12,979 nucleotides of DNA from Pseudomonadales bacterium (GTDB lineage Bacteria > Pseudomonadota > Gammaproteobacteria > Steroidobacterales > Steroidobacteraceae), in NCBI GenBank assembly GCA_020442965.1, contig JAGRJB010000031.1:1-12979 (forward strand), written 5' to 3'. Positions 1-9,780 of this stretch are shown here, piece by piece (position 1 is the stretch's first letter; each line of letters starts with the position of its first letter). The notes under the pieces are model-generated. The model ran no database searches and was not told where the DNA came from. It saw nothing but the letters and a program-made list of their open reading frames with translations. A program made the position numbers and the translations under genes.

Positions 1-91
1 GGCGGGCCAGTTTGCGGTACGCACGCTTCAGTTCAGCGGCAGTGGCATTGCGCTCGACCCCGAGAATCTTGTAATAGTCTTTGAATTCCAT
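1..91 (-). CDS. cbpA: DnaJ/CbpA-type J-domain co-chaperone, N-terminal fragment
   Basis: Only the first 30 codons are in the window; the gene continues off the left edge. The translation opens MEFKDYYKILGVERNATAAE and continues with a K-RAYRKLAR helix. This is the first helix, loop and start of helix II of a J domain, which stimulates Hsp70 (DnaK) ATPase activity. The HPD motif would lie just beyond the edge and cannot be seen. The MEFKDYY opening resembles CbpA (curved DNA-binding protein A) more than classical DnaJ, but the C-terminal domains that would settle it are missing. The ATG at 91 is chosen because the family normally starts a few residues before the DYY motif. It is transcribed divergently from the nnrS-like gene, sharing a 98-bp spacer. 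Confidence 0.8.
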   Translation of the reverse strand, partial: MEFKDYYKILGVERNATAAELKRAYRKLAR

Positions 92-129
92 TGGTGCGGA
101 ATTCTACACGTTGGTCGCTAAGGCCGGCA

Positions 130-140
130 CAGGTGACCTG
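130..140. promoter_or_regulatory. Perfect short palindrome in the cbpA/nnrS divergent spacer
   Basis: CAGGTGACCTG consists of two 5-bp arms around a central G, in the 98-bp region between the two divergent starts. It could be a half-site pair for a regulator of either gene. I see no FNR-, NnrR- or NsrR-like box in this spacer, and an 11-nt palindrome can arise by chance, so this is only a candidate. A TAGAAT hexamer on the minus strand (101-106) resembles a -10 element but sits only about 10 nt from the cbpA ATG and has no recognisable -35. Confidence 0.15.
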
Positions 141-189
141 CGGCAAGTACGTATCGAAGCATTCTCATCCCCCAATCAGGGTTAAGCCT

Positions 190-1371
190 ATGAAAACAAT
201 CACTGCGGCCACGGTCTTCTCCTACGGCTTTCGGCCATTCTTCCTCGCGGCGGGCGTCTTCGCCGCGCTAACAATCCCGGCGTGGATAGTCATTCTGGAC
301 GCGGGCTGGCAACCGCTAGGCGACCTGCCGCCGCAACTGTGGCACGGCCACGAAATGGTATTCGGATTCGTCGCCGCCGCGATTGGCGGATTCCTTTTGA
401 CCGCCGTCCCGAGCTGGACCGGCTCGCGAGGATTTGCAGGGCTGCCACTCGTGCTTGCCACGGCGGCTTGGCTCGTTGGACGCGTGGCATTCGCGATCGA
501 ACCGGTCTTGCCGTTACCGCTGACCGTGCTGGCGGAGCTCGCTTATATTCCAATACTGATTGCGCTGATCGCGCCACCCATTCTGCGTGAACGCAATCGG
601 AACATGGCGATGATCGGTGTGCTCACATTGTTGTGGCTGACCGATGCCGCATTCATGTTCGCGTTGTATCGCGGCGATCCGTTACTCGCTTCCAAGTCTC
701 TCGGCGTTGCCATCAATATCGTGTTGCTGCTGATCACCATCATCGGCGGGCGCATCGTGCCGGCGTTTACGGCCAACGGCTTGCGACAGGCAGGCCAGAC
801 CGTCACGCTACGCAACTACGCGCTCGTCGAGCGTGCGCTACCCATCGTGATGCTCGCCGTGATCGTAGTCGATGCCGTGGTACCCGGCGGAACCTGGGCG
901 GTCGCGGTGGCAGCGCTAGCGGCCCTGCTGCACGCGATACGGCTATCGGGATGGCGCAGCTTGCGGGTGACGGGCAAACCGATACTGTGGGTGCTGCATC
1001 TCGCCTACGTGTGGCTGCCCATCGGGTTCGCCCTGAAGGCCGTTTACCTCGCGGCAGGCAGCCCGTGGGCACAATGGTGGCAGCACGCGTTCGGCATCGG
1101 CGTGTTTGCGCTGATGATTCTCGCCGTCACGACACGCGCCTCGTTAGGCCACACGGGACGTCCGCTGAATGTGCATCCGACCATACCGATCGCCTATCTT
1201 CTGGTCGCACTAGCCGCGCTGACTCGCATCGCCGGGCCTTCCATCTGGCCTGCTCACTACCTCGGCGTGCTGACCGCAACGGCCACGATGTGGACCACGG
1301 CATTTCTGATCTTCGTGGCGATCTACGGACCTATCCTGACGCGACCGCGACTCGACGGCAAGCGCGGCTGA
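190..1371 (+). CDS. nnrS: NnrS family haem/copper membrane protein
   Basis: This is a 393-residue, strongly hydrophobic protein of about twelve membrane segments. Family marks are FSYGFRPFFLAAG at residues 9-21, LWHGHEMVFGF at 50-60 (His52 and His54 are candidate metal ligands), GGRIVPAFTANGL at 186-198, and a C-terminal HAFGIGVFALMILA...SLGHTGRPL block at about 299-326. NnrS proteins are inner-membrane haem- and copper-containing proteins linked to nitric oxide tolerance in denitrifiers and pathogens; their exact biochemistry is unsettled. I start at ATG 190, where the conserved N-terminus begins and AGGG lies 8 nt upstream. An in-frame TTG at 91 would add 33 unconserved residues and overlap the divergent cbpA start codon. 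The gene converges on the F420 operon, with a 64-bp gap between the two stop codons. Confidence 0.92.
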   Translation: MKTITAATVFSYGFRPFFLAAGVFAALTIPAWIVILDAGWQPLGDLPPQLWHGHEMVFGFVAAAIGGFLLTAVPSWTGSRGFAGLPLVLATAAWLVGRVAFAIEPVLPLPLTVLAELAYIPILIALIAPPILRERNRNMAMIGVLTLLWLTDAAFMFALYRGDPLLASKSLGVAINIVLLLITIIGGRIVPAFTANGLRQAGQTVTLRNYALVERALPIVMLAVIVVDAVVPGGTWAVAVAALAALLHAIRLSGWRSLRVTGKPILWVLHLAYVWLPIGFALKAVYLAAGSPWAQWWQHAFGIGVFALMILAVTTRASLGHTGRPLNVHPTIPIAYLLVALAALTRIAGPSIWPAHYLGVLTATATMWTTAFLIFVAIYGPILTRPRLDGKRG

Positions 1372-1435: not shown

Positions 1436-2287
1436 CTATTTCGCAGTGAACAATTGCCAGAGCATACGCCGATCGGAGTCGTAAGCCGTGTAGGTCTTGC
1501 CGACGGTGGTCGAATCGTGCAACGCCGCCACGGTGAGGCGCGCGAGATCCGAACGCGATATGAAGCTGAACGCGAGTGGATCTTCCACCAGTACCGCGTT
1601 CGCGGTGGCCGGCTGCTTGCCCAGGCCGCCAGGGCGAATGATGGTGTACTGCAAGCCGCTGCCGCGCAGATGGTCCTCTGCCATGGTCTTGAGCGGCACC
1701 ACCGCGCTATGCGCCTTCCGGGCCGCGAGCGGGGTAGCTTCGGCCGAGTCGCCGGCGCCGACCACGGAAACGAGGATAAAGCGTGCGATCTTGTGCTTGC
1801 GCGCTGCCTCGATCACGTTGCGATTGCCGATGAAATCGGGTCGTTTGTCAGGATCCATCCGCGGCGGACCCTTGATCATCGCCTTGATCGGGTTCATGCG
1901 CTCGGGCAGATCGGTCGCAGACGTGCCCAGTGCCGAGATGATCGCATCGACGGGCCTGGCGCCGACCGCCGTCATCACCTGCTCCGCATCGAGCGCGTCC
2001 GCGACGACCTTGTCGGCGCCGAGCCCGTCGATCACCGCAGTATCCGAACTCGCGCGTGCCATCGCGACGACGTTGTCGCCACGCTCGCGCAACACGCTCA
2101 CGAGTTCACGGCCCAAAGCACCGGTCGCGCCAATGACCATGACCGTACGCGGCGTTGCATCGGGAGCCAGCCGGGCGATCGATGCCGCCGGTGGCGAATG
2201 ATAGCCGCTCATCGCCAGTATGTAGCCGACGAAGAATAGCGCTAACAATCCGAACAGCCACCTCGCGAGCGACCATAGAATCCCCAT
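1436..2287 (-). CDS. Membrane-anchored atypical SDR / NAD(P)-binding Rossmann protein, last gene of the F420 operon
   Basis: The 283-residue protein has one N-terminal hydrophobic segment (about residues 5-26), a short linker, and then a Rossmann fold beginning VMVIGATGALGRELV with the glycine-rich GATGALG at 53-59. DFIGNRNVIEAA at 151-162 and SGLQYTIIRPGGLG at 210-223 are typical of atypical or extended SDRs of the NAD(P)H-binding class. The classical YxxxK pair is incomplete: Lys200 is present, but the tyrosine position (196) is Val, so ordinary SDR dehydrogenase chemistry is doubtful. The ATG lies 3 nt after the fbiC stop, with GGAG inside the end of fbiC as ribosome binding site, so it is almost certainly co-transcribed. 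The substrate is unknown. Roles in F420 metabolism or as a membrane-tethered oxidoreductase are inference from context. Confidence 0.8.
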   Translation of the reverse strand: MGILWSLARWLFGLLALFFVGYILAMSGYHSPPAASIARLAPDATPRTVMVIGATGALGRELVSVLRERGDNVVAMARASSDTAVIDGLGADKVVADALDAEQVMTAVGARPVDAIISALGTSATDLPERMNPIKAMIKGPPRMDPDKRPDFIGNRNVIEAARKHKIARFILVSVVGAGDSAEATPLAARKAHSAVVPLKTMAEDHLRGSGLQYTIIRPGGLGKQPATANAVLVEDPLAFSFISRSDLARLTVAALHDSTTVGKTYTAYDSDRRMLWQLFTAK

Positions 2288-2290
2288 TTT

Positions 2291-4675
2291 CTATCTCCGA
2301 AGAGCTGCGTTTGAGCAGTGGCCGCGGGCAGCAGCGCGTGCCGGCGGCTGATCCTCGGTCCACAACCACCCCGGCGTGCCATATAGCGTCGTTCGCTGCC
2401 GCGCGATGCGCCGCCGACGCGTGATCAGCGCGCGCAGATCCCGTTCGTCCAGCAATTGCCCGTGCACCGCACCTGCGGCGCGGGAAATGGATTCGTCCAT
2501 CAGCACACCGCCCAGGTCGTTGACGCCCGCGTCCAGCAGAGCCGCTGCACCGGCGGGCCCGAGCTTGACCCACGACGCCTGGATGTTGCGAATCGCCGGG
2601 TATAGCGCAATGCGCGCGACAGCATGCATCAACAACGCCTCGCGCCACGTGGGCCCGGGGCGCGTGCGGCCACGCCGCGCCATTGGCGCTTCACGATACA
2701 CGAACGGCAGCGGCACGAACTCGGTGATGCCCCCGGTGCGCAACTGCAGGTCGCGCAACGCGGCCAGGTGCCGCGCCCAGGCAGTCGGTGTCTCGAGATG
2801 ACCAAACATGATGGTCGACGTGGTTCTAAGGCCAGCCTGGTGTGCCGCCGCCACGACGGCTAACCACTCGGCCGTCGTTAGCTTGTCCGGACAGATCTGT
2901 GCACGAACTTCGTCGTCGAGAATCTCCGCGGCGGTGCCCGGCAGACTGCCGAGCCCTGCGCGACGCAGGCGGTGCAAGAATTCGGACACATCGATCCCGA
3001 GCGAACGCGCGCCATGCAACACTTCGAGCGGCGAGAAAGCATGCACGTGCATCTCCGGCACGGCGCGCTTCACGCTGCGCAGCAGTTCCAGATAGGTCTC
3101 GCCGGTGTAGCTCGGATGAATGCCGCCCTGCATGCACACTTCCGTGGCACCGCGATTCCACGCCTCGCGCGCGCGATCAGCGACCTCGCTGTAGTCGAGA
3201 TGATAGGCCGGCCCACGCAATGACTGCGCCGATCTGCCCTTCGAGAACGCACAGAAGCCGCAGCGGAAAGTACAAATATTGGTGTAATTGATATTGCGGT
3301 TGATCGCGTAGGTCACAACATTGCCGCAAGCCAGGCGTCGCAATCGATCCGCGGCCCGCACGACGTCACGAACCTCGGCGCCGCGCGCCGCGAACAATCG
3401 AACGATCTCATCCAGCGCCGGTGGCCGTCCATCCGTGGCACGCCCCAGAATCCGTACCACATCGTCGCGCGATCTGGAAGTTCGCGCAGCCCGTTTGGCG
3501 ACCACCGGCAAATCGCCGCGCTCCACTCCGAGCCAATCGTGTTTGAGCGGCGGCTCGCCCGATTCGCCGGCGATCCAGTTGTCGGTTCGCGCATAGCCGT
3601 CGGCATCCGCCAACCGCAACACGGCGGGCGCGATGCCCGGGTCGAGCCAGATGGCCCTCGCGGCAATGAACTTCGGATAAATCGTGAGCCGCGGCACCAG
3701 GACGCGCCCGTGCGACGCGAGTTCACGCGCCAGACGCGGCAGTTCTGGCCACGGAGATTCTGGGTTCACATGATCGGGAGTCACGGGGGAGATGCCGCCG
3801 AGATCGTTGATGCCCGCCTCCAGGAGCCCGCCGATGTCGCTCGCATTGAGGTTGGGCGGGGCCTGAATGCTCACTTCTCGCGAGAAGACAAGACGTGCCG
3901 CCGCGATGGTCCACTGCAATTCTGTTAGCGTGGCGCGCGCGACACCCCGCATGAGCGTCGCCGCCTTCGGCACGAAATTCTGGATGATCAGCTCCTGCAG
4001 ATGCCCGTGCTGATCATGTATTGTGCGGAGCTCACGCAGCGCTGCGAGTCGCTCCGCGCGCGTGTCGCCGATACCTACTAACAGGCCGGTCGTCGTCGGA
4101 ATGCGCGCCGCGCCGGCTGCGGCGAGCGAGCCGAGGCGTACAGCCGGGATCTTGTCGGGCGAACCGAAGTGTGGACCACCGCGCTCGCAAAGCCGCTCCG
4201 CCCCAGACTCCAGCATCAGGCCCATCGACGCGGCGTACGGGCGCAGCTCGCGATATTCTTCGAGCGATAGCACCCCCGCATTGATGTGCGGCAGCAGCCG
4301 TGTATTCTCGCGCACCGCACGCGCGGCAGCCGCGAGGTACGCGACGGTCGAATCGAATCCGCGTGCGCTCAGCCAGTCGCGCGCAACGCGATAGCGCGCC
4401 TCCGGACGATCACCCAAGGTGAACAGTGCCTCCCGACACGCGGCCGCTTCACCCGCGCGCGCGATCCTGACGACCTCGTCGATCTCGAGATAGGGGCTCG
4501 CAAGCTTCGCGGGCGTCGTCGCAAAAGTGCAGTAGTGACAAACATCGCGGCACAATCGCGTTAGCGGCACGAACACTTTGGGGGAGTATGTAATGACCCT
4601 CCCATAGGCCGCATCACGCCGCTCGCGGGCAGCGGCCATCAAATCGGTCAGTGGCAACGACATTAGATCGGTCAT
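2291..4675 (-). CDS. fbiC: FbiC: fused CofG-CofH FO synthase (two radical SAM domains)
   Basis: The 794-residue protein makes FO (7,8-didemethyl-8-hydroxy-5-deazariboflavin), the chromophore of coenzyme F420, from tyrosine and 5-amino-6-ribitylamino-uracil. It has two radical S-adenosylmethionine domains, each with a CX3CX2C [4Fe-4S] motif. The N-terminal CofG half has Cys42, Cys46 and Cys49 and the typical NDLGGISPVTPDHVNPE stretch at about 290-306. The C-terminal CofH half has Cys468, Cys472 and Cys475 (CTFRCGFC), MQGGIHPSYTG and VPLPFVYREAP. Both Cys triads are intact, so both halves should be active. Fusion of the two proteins is standard in actinobacteria, whereas archaea keep them separate; it is slightly shorter than the roughly 856-residue mycobacterial protein. 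The ATG overlaps the cofC stop by 4 nt (ATGA), implying translational coupling. Confidence 0.97.
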   Translation of the reverse strand: MTDLMSLPLTDLMAAARERRDAAYGRVITYSPKVFVPLTRLCRDVCHYCTFATTPAKLASPYLEIDEVVRIARAGEAAACREALFTLGDRPEARYRVARDWLSARGFDSTVAYLAAAARAVRENTRLLPHINAGVLSLEEYRELRPYAASMGLMLESGAERLCERGGPHFGSPDKIPAVRLGSLAAAGAARIPTTTGLLVGIGDTRAERLAALRELRTIHDQHGHLQELIIQNFVPKAATLMRGVARATLTELQWTIAAARLVFSREVSIQAPPNLNASDIGGLLEAGINDLGGISPVTPDHVNPESPWPELPRLARELASHGRVLVPRLTIYPKFIAARAIWLDPGIAPAVLRLADADGYARTDNWIAGESGEPPLKHDWLGVERGDLPVVAKRAARTSRSRDDVVRILGRATDGRPPALDEIVRLFAARGAEVRDVVRAADRLRRLACGNVVTYAINRNINYTNICTFRCGFCAFSKGRSAQSLRGPAYHLDYSEVADRAREAWNRGATEVCMQGGIHPSYTGETYLELLRSVKRAVPEMHVHAFSPLEVLHGARSLGIDVSEFLHRLRRAGLGSLPGTAAEILDDEVRAQICPDKLTTAEWLAVVAAAHQAGLRTTSTIMFGHLETPTAWARHLAALRDLQLRTGGITEFVPLPFVYREAPMARRGRTRPGPTWREALLMHAVARIALYPAIRNIQASWVKLGPAGAAALLDAGVNDLGGVLMDESISRAAGAVHGQLLDERDLRALITRRRRIARQRTTLYGTPGWLWTEDQPPARAAARGHCSNAALRR

Positions 4676-5316
4676 GACGACAGAGTGCCGAGTGCGGCGC
4701 GATTCGGCAATCCCGCGAGATCGACCGGCAAGTCGAGATCGAGCGCCAACGCATCGATCGCCGCAACTCGAGCGTCGACACCCGCCGCCGCCAGGCGCTC
4801 AACATGTCGCAATGCGCTGTCGGCGCCAAAGCGCAGGTTGATCCGGCGCGGCAAGGGCATACAAAACGCGTTCGTGCCGCCGTCACGTAGCGCGGCGACA
4901 AAGACCGCGACCTCGCCCTGGTCGGCGACTAGTTGGCACAGCGACTCCGTATCGACCCGCGGCAAATCGCTCGCCACGAAGCAAACCGCTCGCGCCCCCC
5001 GTTCAGCCACCGTGTCGAGTGCGGCATCGATAGCCGCGTCAAACGTTGCGTTCGGTGCATCGCGCAACAACTCGACGTCATAGCGCGCCGCCCAGTCGGG
5101 CCCACTCGCATCTGGTGTTAGTAAGTATATGTCATCGAAGGCCGCGCACCCCAGGCAGGACTCCAGGGCCCTTGCCAATAAGCTCTGCGATAGCGCCTGG
5201 CGTTCAGCAGGCGACAGCGCTTCGCCGAGCCTTGACTTGGCAGCGACGAAGCTCTTGGCCGGAACGAGTGCAACCATCGGACCCGTGCGCCGCAGCGCAG
5301 GCGCTGCACCGCTCAT
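4672..5316 (-). CDS. cofC: CofC/FbiD: guanylyltransferase for the phospho-acid of F420
   Basis: This 214-residue protein uses GTP to activate a phosphorylated three-carbon acid (2-phospho-L-lactate in archaea, phosphoenolpyruvate in mycobacteria, 3-phosphoglycerate in some proteobacteria) for transfer to FO. The nucleotidyltransferase signature VPAKSFVAAKSRL is at 18-30, with ASDLPRV (metal and nucleotide binding) at 115-121. The family-typical DGGTNAFCMPLP runs from 145, followed by RFGADSALRH. Length matches the family. ATG 5316 overlaps the cofD stop by 4 nt. Met14 is an alternative start closer to where many homologues begin (MVALVPAKS), but the overlap favours the longer form. Which phospho-acid it uses cannot be read with confidence from the sequence. 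Confidence 0.95.
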   Translation of the reverse strand: MSGAAPALRRTGPMVALVPAKSFVAAKSRLGEALSPAERQALSQSLLARALESCLGCAAFDDIYLLTPDASGPDWAARYDVELLRDAPNATFDAAIDAALDTVAERGARAVCFVASDLPRVDTESLCQLVADQGEVAVFVAALRDGGTNAFCMPLPRRINLRFGADSALRHVERLAAAGVDARVAAIDALALDLDLPVDLAGLPNRAALGTLSS

Positions 5317-6296
5317 GCGCGCCGACTCGCGAGCGAGCGCGCGCGCAGACCCCGCGCGAAATCCAGTACGGTCCGCGCCAATCCGCCGCGATCATCGTCA
5401 TTTCGCATGACGGTCTGTGTTACGTGTACTGCCAGACCGAGCTGTTCGATTTCATTGGCATACTTGGCATCCTGCGAGTCAATTACCAGGGCATCGAGCA
5501 ACTCGCCGTAATGCCGCGCGATCGAGACCGGGTTCACCGCAAGTCCAAACTCGCGCAGCATTTTGGCGGCACAGCCTTTCAAGGCATCGCCGGCGACGAT
5601 GGGCGAGACCGCGACGACTGGTGCGCGACGCTCGCGAACTCGACTGTGCCAATCGGGAACCGCCAAAATCGGATCGATACTGAGATACGGATTGGATGGG
5701 CAAATCACGATTGCATCCAACTGCGGCTCGATTGCGGGCCATGCCAGCGAAGCCCTGGCGGCGGCAGCACCGACATAGCGCAAATCGTGCACGAGAGGTG
5801 CGGCGCGGCGACGCACAAAGTAGTCCTGGAAGTCGAGCCAGCCTTCTGCCGTGCGCAGCTGCGTTCGGACGGGCTCATCGCACATCGGCACGATCGAGTG
5901 GCGGACCCCGTGCGCGCGCCCGAGCCGCGCCGTCACCTCGCTCAAGGATAGACCGGAGCGCAACCAGGCGCTGCGCTGGACATGCTGAGCCAGGTCGCGA
6001 TCGCCCAACTGAAACCAGGACTCGCCATCCATGGCCCGCAGTGCATCCAGGAAATTCCAGGTCTCGTCGGCGCGTCCCCAGCCGCGCGCATCATCGGCCA
6101 ATCCAGCGACCGCGTAGAGTACCGAATCGAGGTCAGGACAGACCGTCAGGCCCAAATGCTCGAAATCGTCCCCCGTGTTGCAAACGACAATCAACTCATC
6201 GACGCTCAGTTCACGGGTCAGACCGCGCGCCAGCTTGGCGCCCCCCACGCCCCCCGACAGCGCGAGGATGCGGGGTTTCCTGGGCAGTGCGTTCAA
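5313..6296 (-). CDS. cofD: CofD/FbiA: phospholactate (or analogue) transferase to FO
   Basis: The 327-residue enzyme transfers the GDP-activated three-carbon phospho-acid from the CofC product to FO, giving F420-0 or a dehydro or glycerate analogue. The N-terminal LSGGVGGAKLARGL (13-26) is the family nucleotide-binding loop; TGDDFEHLGL (41-50), CPDLDSVLYAVAGL (53-66) and CPSNPYLSIDPIL further on are the other hallmarks. The start must be just before the glycine loop. No ATG is available there, and the TTG at 6296 forms a TTGA overlap with the cofE stop, so I take TTG as the real start; it may lower translation relative to neighbours. A 4-nt ATGA overlap links its end to cofC. Confidence 0.95.
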   Translation of the reverse strand: MNALPRKPRILALSGGVGGAKLARGLTRELSVDELIVVCNTGDDFEHLGLTVCPDLDSVLYAVAGLADDARGWGRADETWNFLDALRAMDGESWFQLGDRDLAQHVQRSAWLRSGLSLSEVTARLGRAHGVRHSIVPMCDEPVRTQLRTAEGWLDFQDYFVRRRAAPLVHDLRYVGAAAARASLAWPAIEPQLDAIVICPSNPYLSIDPILAVPDWHSRVRERRAPVVAVSPIVAGDALKGCAAKMLREFGLAVNPVSIARHYGELLDALVIDSQDAKYANEIEQLGLAVHVTQTVMRNDDDRGGLARTVLDFARGLRARSLASRRA

Positions 6297-7072
6297 CGAA
6301 ACATGTCCTCGGTCTCAGCGCGCTGCAAGACGGCCGCACCCTCACCATCATCCTGCATCACCGGGTGGCCGCGTACGACCACCACCGGCCGGCGCTCGCC
6401 TGCCTGCCCCATCAGCATCGAGGCGCCGGCTGCTAACTCATCGATACTACCGACCTCGGTCGATCGCAAGCGGCGACCAAAAATGTCGGGCTGGCCGCGC
6501 AAATCCGTGAGCGCCGTGAGTCCGGCCGCACCGAGCGCCTGCCCGATCGTGCCGCGCCGCCAGGCCCGACCGATGCTGTCGATGATCAGCACGCCCGGCG
6601 CAACACCGAGTTGGACGCGCAACTTGGCGCGCAGTTCGCGTGCCGAGAGATCGCAATTCACGGGCAGCAGCAAGGCGCGATTTTCCGGGTCGTCCGGCGC
6701 AACGTTTGATTGATCGATTCCGGCATTGGCCAGAATGAAGCCATTGCGGTGCTCGACGATCAAGACCTCGCGACCCACTCGCAGCACGCATTTCGACTCC
6801 TCGAGTATCAGCTGCACCAGCCGCGGATCCTTGCCGGTGCGAGCGGCCAGAATCGTCGCCTTGCGCGATACCTTGACGTTTGCCAGCGCGACGATTCGCC
6901 CCTCCGCTTTCGAGACGATCTTCTGCGCAATCACGATCACATCCTGCGCGGTGATCACTAACGACTCACGCAGGAGAGCCGCCGCGATGACCGCCGCGAG
7001 ATCATCGCCCGGCTGAATGAGCGGCAGGGACGCGAGCGCAGTCAACGATAGAGAGTGCGGCGTACTATCCAT
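6293..7072 (-). CDS. cofE: CofE: coenzyme F420-0:L-glutamate ligase
   Basis: The 259-residue ligase uses GTP to add gamma-linked glutamates to F420-0, trapping the cofactor in the cell. Conserved features are QKIVSKAEGR at 50-59, GFILANAGIDQSNV at 111-124 and IDSIGRAWRRGTIG at 164-177. The last usually reads DSFGRPWR in relatives, so there is a mild substitution. It is the stand-alone, archaeal-like length. The C-terminal flavin (nitroreductase-like) domain found in mycobacterial FbiB, which reduces dehydro-F420-0, is absent. A ribosome binding site GAGGG precedes the ATG, 15 nt after the fno stop. The stop overlaps the cofD TTG start by 4 nt. Confidence 0.95.
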   Translation of the reverse strand: MDSTPHSLSLTALASLPLIQPGDDLAAVIAAALLRESLVITAQDVIVIAQKIVSKAEGRIVALANVKVSRKATILAARTGKDPRLVQLILEESKCVLRVGREVLIVEHRNGFILANAGIDQSNVAPDDPENRALLLPVNCDLSARELRAKLRVQLGVAPGVLIIDSIGRAWRRGTIGQALGAAGLTALTDLRGQPDIFGRRLRSTEVGSIDELAAGASMLMGQAGERRPVVVVRGHPVMQDDGEGAAVLQRAETEDMFR

Positions 7073-7087
7073 GACGCCCTCGCCACC

Positions 7088-7753
7088 TCAAACAGGGCGG
7101 GGTTCGCCCGTGATGCGGATGCCAGCACCATCGATGCCATAGCGCTTGTTGATCCCGATCAGAATGGACGTCAGCGCTTCCGCCGCTGCGGAGTTCGCCA
7201 ACGGCCCGGCGTGCCAGGCGCGCAGCCCTCCGGCCTGCAGCAGATCGATGATGACCTGACGATCGACCTCTTTATCGCCGGTGACGAGGACGTCGCAGTC
7301 GGGAACCGTACCAGCCGCCAAATGCGTGGCTGCAATGTTGTGCAATGCGGCCACGACTCGCACGCCGTCGCCCAACAATTGCTGTGCTTCCACCGCCGCG
7401 CAGCCCGCGGCCGGCAGCTGTACCCGCAGGACTTTGGGTGGCCGCAACGGCACGGTTGCATCGAGTACGAGCTTGCCCTGCACGACGTCACGCACAGCCT
7501 CCAGCGTTGTTTGGTGCGCCGTGTAGGGTACGGTCACCGCGACAATATCGGCTCTGGCAGCGGCGTTCGCTAACGACTCACCGCTGACACGACCCGGGAA
7601 GATCGCAGCCAGCTCGGCCGCGGTCCGTTGTGCGCGCTCAGCGGCGCGCGAACCGATGACCACGGCGACTCCCTGGCGCAGCAAAAATCGGGCGAGTGCG
7701 TTGCCAAGATCCCCCGTGCCGCCCAGCACGGCGACGGTCTTGCCAGCCGACAC
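7088..7753 (-). CDS. fno: NADPH-dependent F420 reductase (Fno/NpdG family)
   Basis: This 221-residue cytoplasmic enzyme exchanges hydride between NADP(H) and coenzyme F420. The Rossmann start VAVLGGTGDLGNALA has GGTGDLG at 11-17, and GSRAAERA at 34-41 supplies the Ser-Arg pair expected to bind the NADP 2'-phosphate. The C-terminal ANSAAAEALTSILIGINKRY and GIRITG match the end of Fno proteins, and the length is normal. The start is GTG at 7753, with GAGG 6 nt upstream inside the end of the LLM gene; the gap to that gene's stop is 2 nt. With no F420-dependent glucose-6-phosphate dehydrogenase visible, Fno is the probable route for making F420H2 here, although the reverse direction is possible. 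Confidence 0.93.
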   Translation of the reverse strand: MSAGKTVAVLGGTGDLGNALARFLLRQGVAVVIGSRAAERAQRTAAELAAIFPGRVSGESLANAAARADIVAVTVPYTAHQTTLEAVRDVVQGKLVLDATVPLRPPKVLRVQLPAAGCAAVEAQQLLGDGVRVVAALHNIAATHLAAGTVPDCDVLVTGDKEVDRQVIIDLLQAGGLRAWHAGPLANSAAAEALTSILIGINKRYGIDGAGIRITGEPRPV

Positions 7754-7755
7754 GC

Positions 7756-8781
7756 TCAGCCTCGCAGAGCGGGCATGACCCGCTCACCAATGATCTGCAA
7801 CGCCTCCATCGGCTCGTCGTGCAGACGCAGCGCTACTTCCGTGAGCCCCGCTCGACCGAACATACGAAAGCGTTCGATCTCGCGCTCGATGTCTTCGAGA
7901 CCGCCCGTGGAGGTGAAGTATTCGCACAGCCGATTCGGTATCGCTTCCGGCATGCCTTGGATATTGCCTGAGCGGTCGAACCAGGCTGCGACGCACTTGT
8001 CGTAGTTATCGCGCACTAGCCGAACCTCGTCCGGCTGCAAGACCTGCGCGAGCAATTCCGCTTCGAGTTTGCGCGCCCGCCACGCAATCTCACGTCGCGA
8101 CTCGCGATAGCCCTCCTTGCGATCGCGCTTGAGGTGCCATGCCCAGAATGTGTTCGTTCGCAGGGGAGCCATGCCGGCGGCGCGTTTGGCGGCGCCCTCG
8201 CTGACCTCCGCCATCGCTTCGGCCATCACTTCGGGCGGCGTACAGCCGATGTAAACGCCGTCCGCTACCCGCGCCTCCATACGCATCATCATGCCCCGAT
8301 ATGCCGTACCGTACACGAGCGGCGGTGAGGACTTGATCCAGCCGTAGGCGCAGGGAAAATTGACCTGGAAATCCTCGCCCTGATAGCCCTTGGCGAGTTG
8401 CCCGCGACCCGCGCCACGCACGATCTCGATCGCTTCGCGAACGGCGCGAACGATCTTCGCCGGCTTGGCCAGGCCCATCGCGTCGATATTGCCTTCGCCA
8501 GCCCCCATCGCGACGACGGCCCGGCCATCGCTCATCTCATTGAGTGACAGCAGGCTGTTGGCAATCTTGAGTGGGTGCATCTCAAACGGACTGATCGCCA
8601 GCGGGCCGACGAGCAGCTTCTGCGTTTGCTGCAGCAAAGGCACGAGTGAGAGAAAGCAGTCCCAATGGGCGAAGTAGTTCGAGCTCCAAACTGCCCGCAC
8701 GCCGTACCGCTCGGCCGCGACGCCCAGTTCGGCAACCTGTCGTGGCGACAGATCCGGCTCGAGAATGATATCGATTTCCAT
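7756..8781 (-). CDS. LLM-class F420-dependent oxidoreductase, Mer-like
   Basis: The 341-residue TIM-barrel protein belongs to the luciferase-like monooxygenase class, whose members bind FMN or F420. Features are a beta-strand start IDIILEPD, LAISPFEMHPLKIAN at 61-75, and SDGRAVVAMGAGEGN at 84-98. The latter resembles the cofactor-binding GxGxG loop region of methylenetetrahydromethanopterin reductase (Mer) and F420-dependent glucose-6-phosphate dehydrogenase relatives. Use of F420 rather than FMN is inferred from its place as first gene of the F420 operon, 2 nt before fno. The substrate is unknown. ATG 8781 has AGG 4 nt upstream. The upstream gap to galU (8782-8904) holds the likely operon promoter and a Fur-like box. 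Confidence 0.88.
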   Translation of the reverse strand: MEIDIILEPDLSPRQVAELGVAAERYGVRAVWSSNYFAHWDCFLSLVPLLQQTQKLLVGPLAISPFEMHPLKIANSLLSLNEMSDGRAVVAMGAGEGNIDAMGLAKPAKIVRAVREAIEIVRGAGRGQLAKGYQGEDFQVNFPCAYGWIKSSPPLVYGTAYRGMMMRMEARVADGVYIGCTPPEVMAEAMAEVSEGAAKRAAGMAPLRTNTFWAWHLKRDRKEGYRESRREIAWRARKLEAELLAQVLQPDEVRLVRDNYDKCVAAWFDRSGNIQGMPEAIPNRLCEYFTSTGGLEDIEREIERFRMFGRAGLTEVALRLHDEPMEALQIIGERVMPALRG

Positions 8782-8904: not shown

Positions 8905-9780
8905 TCAGCGACGCTTGCCGAGCGCGCGCAGGTATTGGCGGAAAGGCTTGGCCAGTTCCGGGTGCGAGAGTGCATATTCAACGGTGGCCTGCAGGTAGCC
9001 GAGCTTGCTGCCGCAGTCGAAGCGCTTGCCGTCGAACTTATAGGCGTACACCGATTCGTCTTTCATCAGGCGCGCGATGCCGTCGGTGAGTTGGATCTCG
9101 CCGCCGGCGCCCTCGCCGATGCGCTCCAGATGATGGAAAATCCGTGGTGTTAGTAAATAGCGCCCAACGACACCAAGGCGCGACGGCGCCACGGCTGGCT
9201 TGGGCTTCTCGACTATTTGCTCGATTCTGAACAAGTCGCCCGACGCAGCCGTTGTCTTGACGATTCCGTACTTGTCGGAATCCGCCTTCGGCACAGTCTG
9301 TACACCGATGATGCTGTAGCCCAGGAAACGCTGTGCCATCTGCTCGAGGCAGGGCACCTGGGCATCGATCAGGTCGTCGGCGAGATGCACGAAGAACGGC
9401 TCGTGTCCGACCGCCGGTTTGGCACAAAGCACCGCATGACCCAGACCGAGCGGCGCCGATTGGCGTATGTAGATACAGGTTGCGTAGGAGGGAAGCACGC
9501 TGCGCAGGCTCTGCGCCAAGCGCGATTTGCCTTGCTTGTGCAGGAGCTTCTCGAGTTCGGCGTCGGAGTCAAAATGGTCTTCGATGGCCCGCTTGGACGC
9601 GCCGGTGATAAATACGAGACGCCGAGCGCCGGCTGCCAGCGCTTCCTCCACCGCGTATTGGATCAAGGGCTTGTCGACGATCGGCAGCATCTCCTTGGGG
9701 CTCGCCTTGGTAGCCGGAAGGAAGCGCGTGCCTCGCCCCGCCACCGGAAATACCGCCGTCTCAATACCGTGCCGTTGCAT
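8905..9780 (-). CDS. galU: UTP-glucose-1-phosphate uridylyltransferase
   Basis: The 291-residue enzyme makes UDP-glucose from UTP and glucose-1-phosphate for envelope polysaccharides. The nucleotide-binding signature [18 protein letters not shown] begins at residue 9 and continues [33 protein letters not shown], the [12 protein letters not shown] loop, and [19 protein letters not shown] with LTPRIF further on are all as in GalU. The length is usual. ATG 9780 has GAGG 5 nt upstream. The stop is 123 nt before the F420 operon; a CTGAG/CTCAG hairpin (8885-8898) just beyond the stop is a weak terminator candidate, so some readthrough into the F420 genes cannot be excluded. Confidence 0.97.

Follow-up and report, generated by a model that had tools for sequence, protein, structure and literature searches.

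The coenzyme F420 clusters described in Proteobacteria (Afipia, Rhodopseudomonas and Reyranella; marine Pseudomonadales/OM182) have the gene order fno-cofE-cofD-cofC, FbiC nearby and a stand-alone CofE. The mycobacterial FbiA-FbiB-FbiC-FbiD pathway uses phosphoenolpyruvate (PEP), passes through dehydro-F420 and includes a reductase, the C-terminal domain of FbiB or FbiE; Mycetohabitans produces the 3-phosphoglycerate (3-PG) form, 3PG-F420. We analysed an F420 operon of a Steroidobacteraceae genome (Pseudomonadales bacterium, GCA_020442965.1). The window is the entire 12,979-base contig JAGRJB010000031.1 (C604) of an assembly of 2.99 Mb in 653 contigs, which is 67.6% complete. The operon shares the gene order, the nearby FbiC and the stand-alone CofE with the proteobacterial clusters. 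It differs in having a luciferase-like (LLM) oxidoreductase gene first, a short-chain dehydrogenase/reductase (SDR) gene last and a Phe at a pocket site of CofC, and its cof proteins are at best 46-61% identical to theirs. This is an F420 system of a known kind; what is new is the link between LLM and fbiC, a missing step in linker synthesis, and CofC-FbiC fusions in relatives. A literature search joining Steroidobacteraceae with F420 found no paper in the collection searched.

We consider it likely that the operon constitutes a self-contained module of F420 redox metabolism, comprising synthesis, charging and a client, the LLM enzyme, which resembles Mer (methylenetetrahydromethanopterin reductase). 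FbiC would convert a riboflavin-pathway intermediate and tyrosine to FO, CofC and CofD would attach a three-carbon phospho-acid (2-phospholactate (2-PL) or PEP, not 3-PG), and CofE would add glutamates. Fno would then charge F420 with hydride from NADPH, and LLM, encoded by the leading gene, would spend F420H2 on some, probably organic, substrate. Such a module would be a compact gammaproteobacterial F420 system in which one operon covers synthesis, charging and what is probably the only client.

Re-reading the open reading frames (ORFs), starts and stops confirmed the single-operon layout given by an earlier sequence-only reading. Seven minus-strand ORFs span 1436-8781 in the transcription order LLM, Fno, CofE, CofD, CofC, FbiC, SDR, with gaps of 2 (LLM-Fno), 15 (Fno-CofE) and 3 nt (FbiC-SDR) and 4-nt overlaps at CofE/CofD, CofD/CofC and CofC/FbiC. 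Seven adjacent genes of one pathway, all in the same direction, are far more than chance would produce. A promoter and terminator scan yielded nothing exceeding shuffled sequences (promoters, 0 versus 1.6; terminators, 5 versus 5.8). The gene identities were also upheld (Table 1). With the NCBIfam curated cut-offs as the criterion, FbiC, CofC, CofD, CofE and Fno all passed; LLM and SDR reached no NCBIfam cut-off and were assigned to general Pfam families only. Both radical SAM triads of FbiC are intact, as had been claimed, with CX3CX2C motifs starting at residues 42 and 468. CofD is the sole PF01933 match in the assembly. CofE (259 aa) has no nitroreductase domain, and its match to NF009810 (FbiB, 449 positions) is limited to positions 10-243. 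Because the overlap with CofD suggests so, CofC may start at 5316, which would give 214 aa; the database entry P0121 begins later (201 aa), but P0122 and P0123, two relatives, are 213 aa long. The lack of riboflavin-pathway precursors had been named as a possible refutation, and the pathway gene ribD was located on another contig of the assembly (C361).

Table 1. Features of the F420 operon, its neighbours and a fused CofC-FbiC gene of a relative.
Feature	Position	Strand	Family match
LLM (luciferase-like) oxidoreductase, Mer-like fold	7756..8781	-	PF00296, 103.5 bits (passes Pfam cut-off)
Fno/NpdG, NADPH:F420 oxidoreductase; GTG start	7088..7753	-	TIGR01915, 170.6 bits (cut-off 149.8)
CofE, F420-0:L-glutamate ligase	6293..7072	-	TIGR01916, 248.7 bits (cut-off 180.65)
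CofD, phospholactate/FO transferase; TTG start	5313..6296	-	TIGR01819, 275.9 bits (cut-off 257.45)
CofC guanylyltransferase	4672..5316	-	TIGR03552, 119.2 bits (cut-off 105)
FbiC (CofG-CofH fusion), FO synthase	2291..4675	-	PRK09234, 1072.3 bits (cut-off 1018)
SDR/NmrA-like NAD(P)-binding protein	1436..2287	-	PF13460, 122.3 bits (passes Pfam cut-off)
galU, core gene upstream of the operon, 123 nt from the LLM start	8905..9780	-	TIGR01099, 345.1 bits
NnrS, convergent neighbour of the operon	91..1371	+	PF05940, 343 bits
CofC fused to the FbiC N-terminus, single ORF (about 1000 aa) carrying the domains CofC, CofG and CofH	L171:3726-6836	-	

The fold of LLM and its linkage to fbiC point to it as a likely F420H2 client of the operon. 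The AlphaFold model of LLM had a mean pLDDT of 90.1, and in a structure ranking by Z the top six Protein Data Bank (PDB) entries were all Mer (32.7-34.5), with other F420 enzymes in rows 7-15. We searched 217 family genomes for LLM orthologs at E <= 1e-50 and found them in 21: the window's own, G027 and 19 of genus g12. Twenty of these 21 genomes are FbiC-positive. Outside the window, 17 of the 20 orthologs abut fbiC, on the same contig and the opposite strand, the match ends ranging from a 64-nt overlap to a 55-nt gap; for the other three, fbiC was on a separate contig in two genomes and was not found in one. The window differs from these relatives in that LLM is the first gene of the operon itself. 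Across three genera (the window, G027 and G014), LLM is 74-80% identical, compared with 57-65% for FbiC, 46-53% for both CofE and CofD, and 52-67% for Fno. LLM is, by sequence, the most conserved part of the system in this trio. In G027, there is no PF00296 gene besides the LLM ortholog. Given the linkage to fbiC, this uncharacterised family is a good candidate for finding a role of F420 in Proteobacteria.

Among 59 relatives, the median number of PF00296-type LLM genes was 4.5 in FbiC-positive and 0 in FbiC-negative genomes, and PF04075 reductases occurred in 6 of 16 FbiC-positive and 0 of 43 FbiC-negative genomes; as these genomes are related, both comparisons are indicative only. Separately, four F420-positive relatives (G030, G049, G037 and G016) had 13 to 23 LLM genes each, versus 0-3 in FbiC-negative ones.

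The type of CofC bears on the three-carbon linker. A Ser or Thr at position 162 (Mrhiz numbering) marks the use of 3-PG (PMC8764529). The residue at this site is Gly in the window, which places its CofC in the 2-PL/PEP type. The fetched loci yielded 78 distinct CofC sequences, the window's among them, and every one of these has Gly here, as have P0122-P0126. At the pocket position L92/M91, 64 of the 78 have Leu and the window alone has Phe; Phe also occurs in P0122-P0125. The mycobacterial system shares the FbiC fusion and the CofC residue type with the window; however, its FbiB C-terminal reductase domain or FbiE is not in the window's operon.

Surveys for the reductase gave the following results. 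An FbiE-like gene lay near cofE in 18 of 80 loci of named relatives (15 of 31 Chloroflexota, 3 of 25 Alphaproteobacteria) and in none of the 18 gammaproteobacterial, one betaproteobacterial and five unclassified loci. It was also absent from 28 further FbiC-bearing gammaproteobacterial stretches, several of which are contig ends. In the window's own assembly, 67.6% complete, the FbiE query had no match at E <= 1e-12. It had 24 at that threshold in the 217 family genomes, the best at 68.1 bits and 38% identity, compared with 123.9 bits for Mycobacterium FbiB-C in the PDB. Seven of the 24 matched genomes were among the 66 FbiC-positive ones, and the match was never on the fbiC contig. Thus, neither the operon nor the family genomes yielded a dehydro-F420 reductase of FbiE quality. 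Given a CofC with the 2-PL/PEP-type Gly, a CofE without a fused domain and the failure to find such a reductase, the earlier description of the pathway as complete is too strong. The remaining options may be 2-PL, a reductase of another kind, or dehydro-F420 itself as the cofactor. This gap in the known pathway, with neither a linker reductase nor a 3-PG CofC, appears to extend across the family's F420-positive genomes. As a side observation, the FbiE-like nitroreductase of two Chloroflexi loci (L012:5166-6242 and L020:9294-10328) forms the C-terminal end of a larger ORF (358 and 344 aa), preceded by a different N-terminal part.

The use of PEP is a serious contender, although we stop short of calling it probable. 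CofC and CofD would yield dehydro-F420-0, and a flavin mononucleotide (FMN) enzyme whose gene lies elsewhere, or in the third of the genome not assembled, would reduce it. The diagnostic Gly is common to PEP and 2-PL enzymes, the FbiE-like genes near cofE in named loci indicate that this route is widespread among neighbours, and the incompleteness of the assembly leaves room for the enzyme. However, the weak and unlinked FbiE matches in the family, and the lack of FbiE-like genes in the gammaproteobacterial loci and stretches, argue against it.

A 2-PL route as in archaea appears rather doubtful. It would require no reductase, and the operon would be complete as it is. FbiE was not found in the FbiC-positive genomes of the family at the threshold used, and all tested 2-PL/PEP-type CofC enzymes, including those of Paracoccus and Oligotropha, preferred 2-PL when assayed with Methanocaldococcus jannaschii CofD (PMC8764529). 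However, such CofC assays cannot separate 2-PL from PEP in vivo, where the cognate CofD decides (PMC8764529), and the part of PMC8498797 available to us established no bacterial enzyme as the source of 2-PL. We tentatively propose a Steroidobacteraceae-type F420 route that uses neither a 3-PG CofC nor FbiE/FbiB-C (a bacterial 2-PL pathway, or dehydro-F420 as the working cofactor) and is coupled to a new F420-linked Mer-like family with an altered active site; we hold this combination to be possible and do not press it.

Several observations weigh against the self-contained module. Its linker route lacks a source of 2-PL or a dehydro-F420 reductase, and the solved CofC closest in overall sequence is a 3-PG enzyme (7p97, 64.5 bits, versus 44.7 and 41.7). 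In the sequence alignment to Mer, LLM has an invariant Ile6 where Mer has the catalytic Glu6 (ungapped N-terminal register, inspected by eye against kMer and jMer), and Leu61-Ala62 in place of the F420-backstop pair Gly61-Val62 (residue roles from the available portion of PMC11094777). In the assembly, no PF04075 gene and only one further full-length PF00296 gene were found (67.6% completeness applies to both counts). The best NCBIfam match of LLM, PRK02271 (mer), scored 106.4 bits, under the cut-off of 276, and TIGR03555 scored 78.9 against 348.7.

Because Glu6 and Gly61-Val62 are replaced, LLM may use FMN as its cofactor. It would then be an FMN monooxygenase merely located beside the F420 genes, with the F420 client elsewhere; the FMN enzymes of the luciferase family have the same fold. 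We regard this as unlikely, since nearly all LLM-positive family genomes are FbiC-positive, most of the orthologs abut fbiC, and 15 entries of F420 enzymes head the structure ranking. The production of 3PG-F420 as in Mycetohabitans is highly improbable: the stand-alone CofE, the missing reductase and the similarity to 7p97 are compatible with it, but the window, the CofC sequences of the other fetched loci and P0122-P0126 have Gly in place of the Mycetohabitans Ser162, and the window and P0122-P0125 have Phe at position M91, where the bulky-for-bulky change M91L reduced 3-PG use (PMC8764529); the Gly at the diagnostic residue led us to reject it. A replacement of MetF by LLM as an F420-dependent methylenetetrahydrofolate reductase (MTHFR), suggested by Mer being its nearest characterised relative, can be dismissed almost entirely, as PF02219 (MTHFR) is present in the window's own assembly (C510) and in 19 of the 21 LLM-positive genomes, and the pterin-activating Glu is missing by alignment.

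In several relatives, cofC and fbiC form a single ORF. This was the case in 10 of 29 family or class genomes with both genes on one fetched locus (eight of genus g12, two of g14), and 13 of 94 CofC rows were CofC-FbiC fusions. Besides the locus in Table 1, the fusion was found in L167, L166, L233, L235-L237 and L240-L242. The fusion protein of G014 scored above the cut-off with TIGR03552 (152.2 bits) as well as with PRK09234 (1075.7 bits). In the window, by contrast, the two genes are separate. The fusions suggest that FO synthesis is coupled to linker activation. No CofC-FbiC fusion is mentioned where gene fusion is discussed in PMC8498797, PMC6450877 and PMC11104420, although it may still be published elsewhere.

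The F420 trait in Steroidobacteraceae is patchy but common. With the window's own genome counted each time, FbiC occurs in 66 of the 217 genomes of the family, in 16 of the 59 closest relatives and in 15 of 369 genomes sampled from the class. Within the family, the FbiC-positive set comprises 38 of the 114 good-quality genomes and 15 of the 25 genera. The view that F420 is unusual in Gammaproteobacteria therefore has to be qualified. Core genes of gammaproteobacterial type adjoin the operon, as had been stated: GalU is 79-81% identical in all three congeners, and in the two whose contig extends there (G002 and G003) the order rpsA-ihfB-lapB-comEA-galU is kept and RpsA and IhfB are about 90% and 97% identical, respectively. 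A comparison of galU-nnrS synteny, which had been recommended, showed a shared order on the galU side in those two; however, none of the congeners has F420 genes behind galU. Other genes occupy this place: G001 and G003 have a DUF533 gene there, and flagellar genes follow at a greater distance (flgA in G001; flgN and flgA in G002). FbiC was found in none of the three congeners, one of which is a single-contig assembly of 4.6 Mb and 97% completeness. Because the congeners lack FbiC and their galU precedes other genes, the claim that the cluster is settled in the chromosome is unsupported.

Since the congeners have no F420 genes, this lineage probably acquired the operon by transfer, or else the congeners lost it. 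The phylogenies called for earlier gave no firm position for FbiC and a weak one for CofD and CofE. In the FbiC tree, the window lies on a long branch (0.97) next to G026 with a support of 82. Constraining it into the 26-row main clade (25 family rows and one of another family) cost 5.2 log units (approximately unbiased (AU) test, p 0.395), and constraining it with eight alphaproteobacterial or unclassified rows cost 24.3 (AU p 0.114); neither was rejected, and the groups were picked after the tree was seen. The CofD+CofE tree gives the window a weakly supported (82) position within Alphaproteobacteria, away from the other five rows of the family. The closest CofE in named genomes is likewise alphaproteobacterial, at 55-59% identity.

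The TTG start of NnrS at position 91 is probably too early, and one near 190 is likelier; homologs align from residue 37 at the earliest. A match to NnrS at E <= 1e-30 was found in only one of three congeners (53% identity). A hydrophobic stretch lies at the N-terminus of the SDR, which would be an accessory of the operon. None of the fetched cof loci had a homolog of it at E <= 1e-6, and its nearest homologs are 73% identical. One SDR homolog, P0242, lies on a contig of 11,642 nt, and the contig of the CofC relative P0122 is likewise 11,642 nt long.
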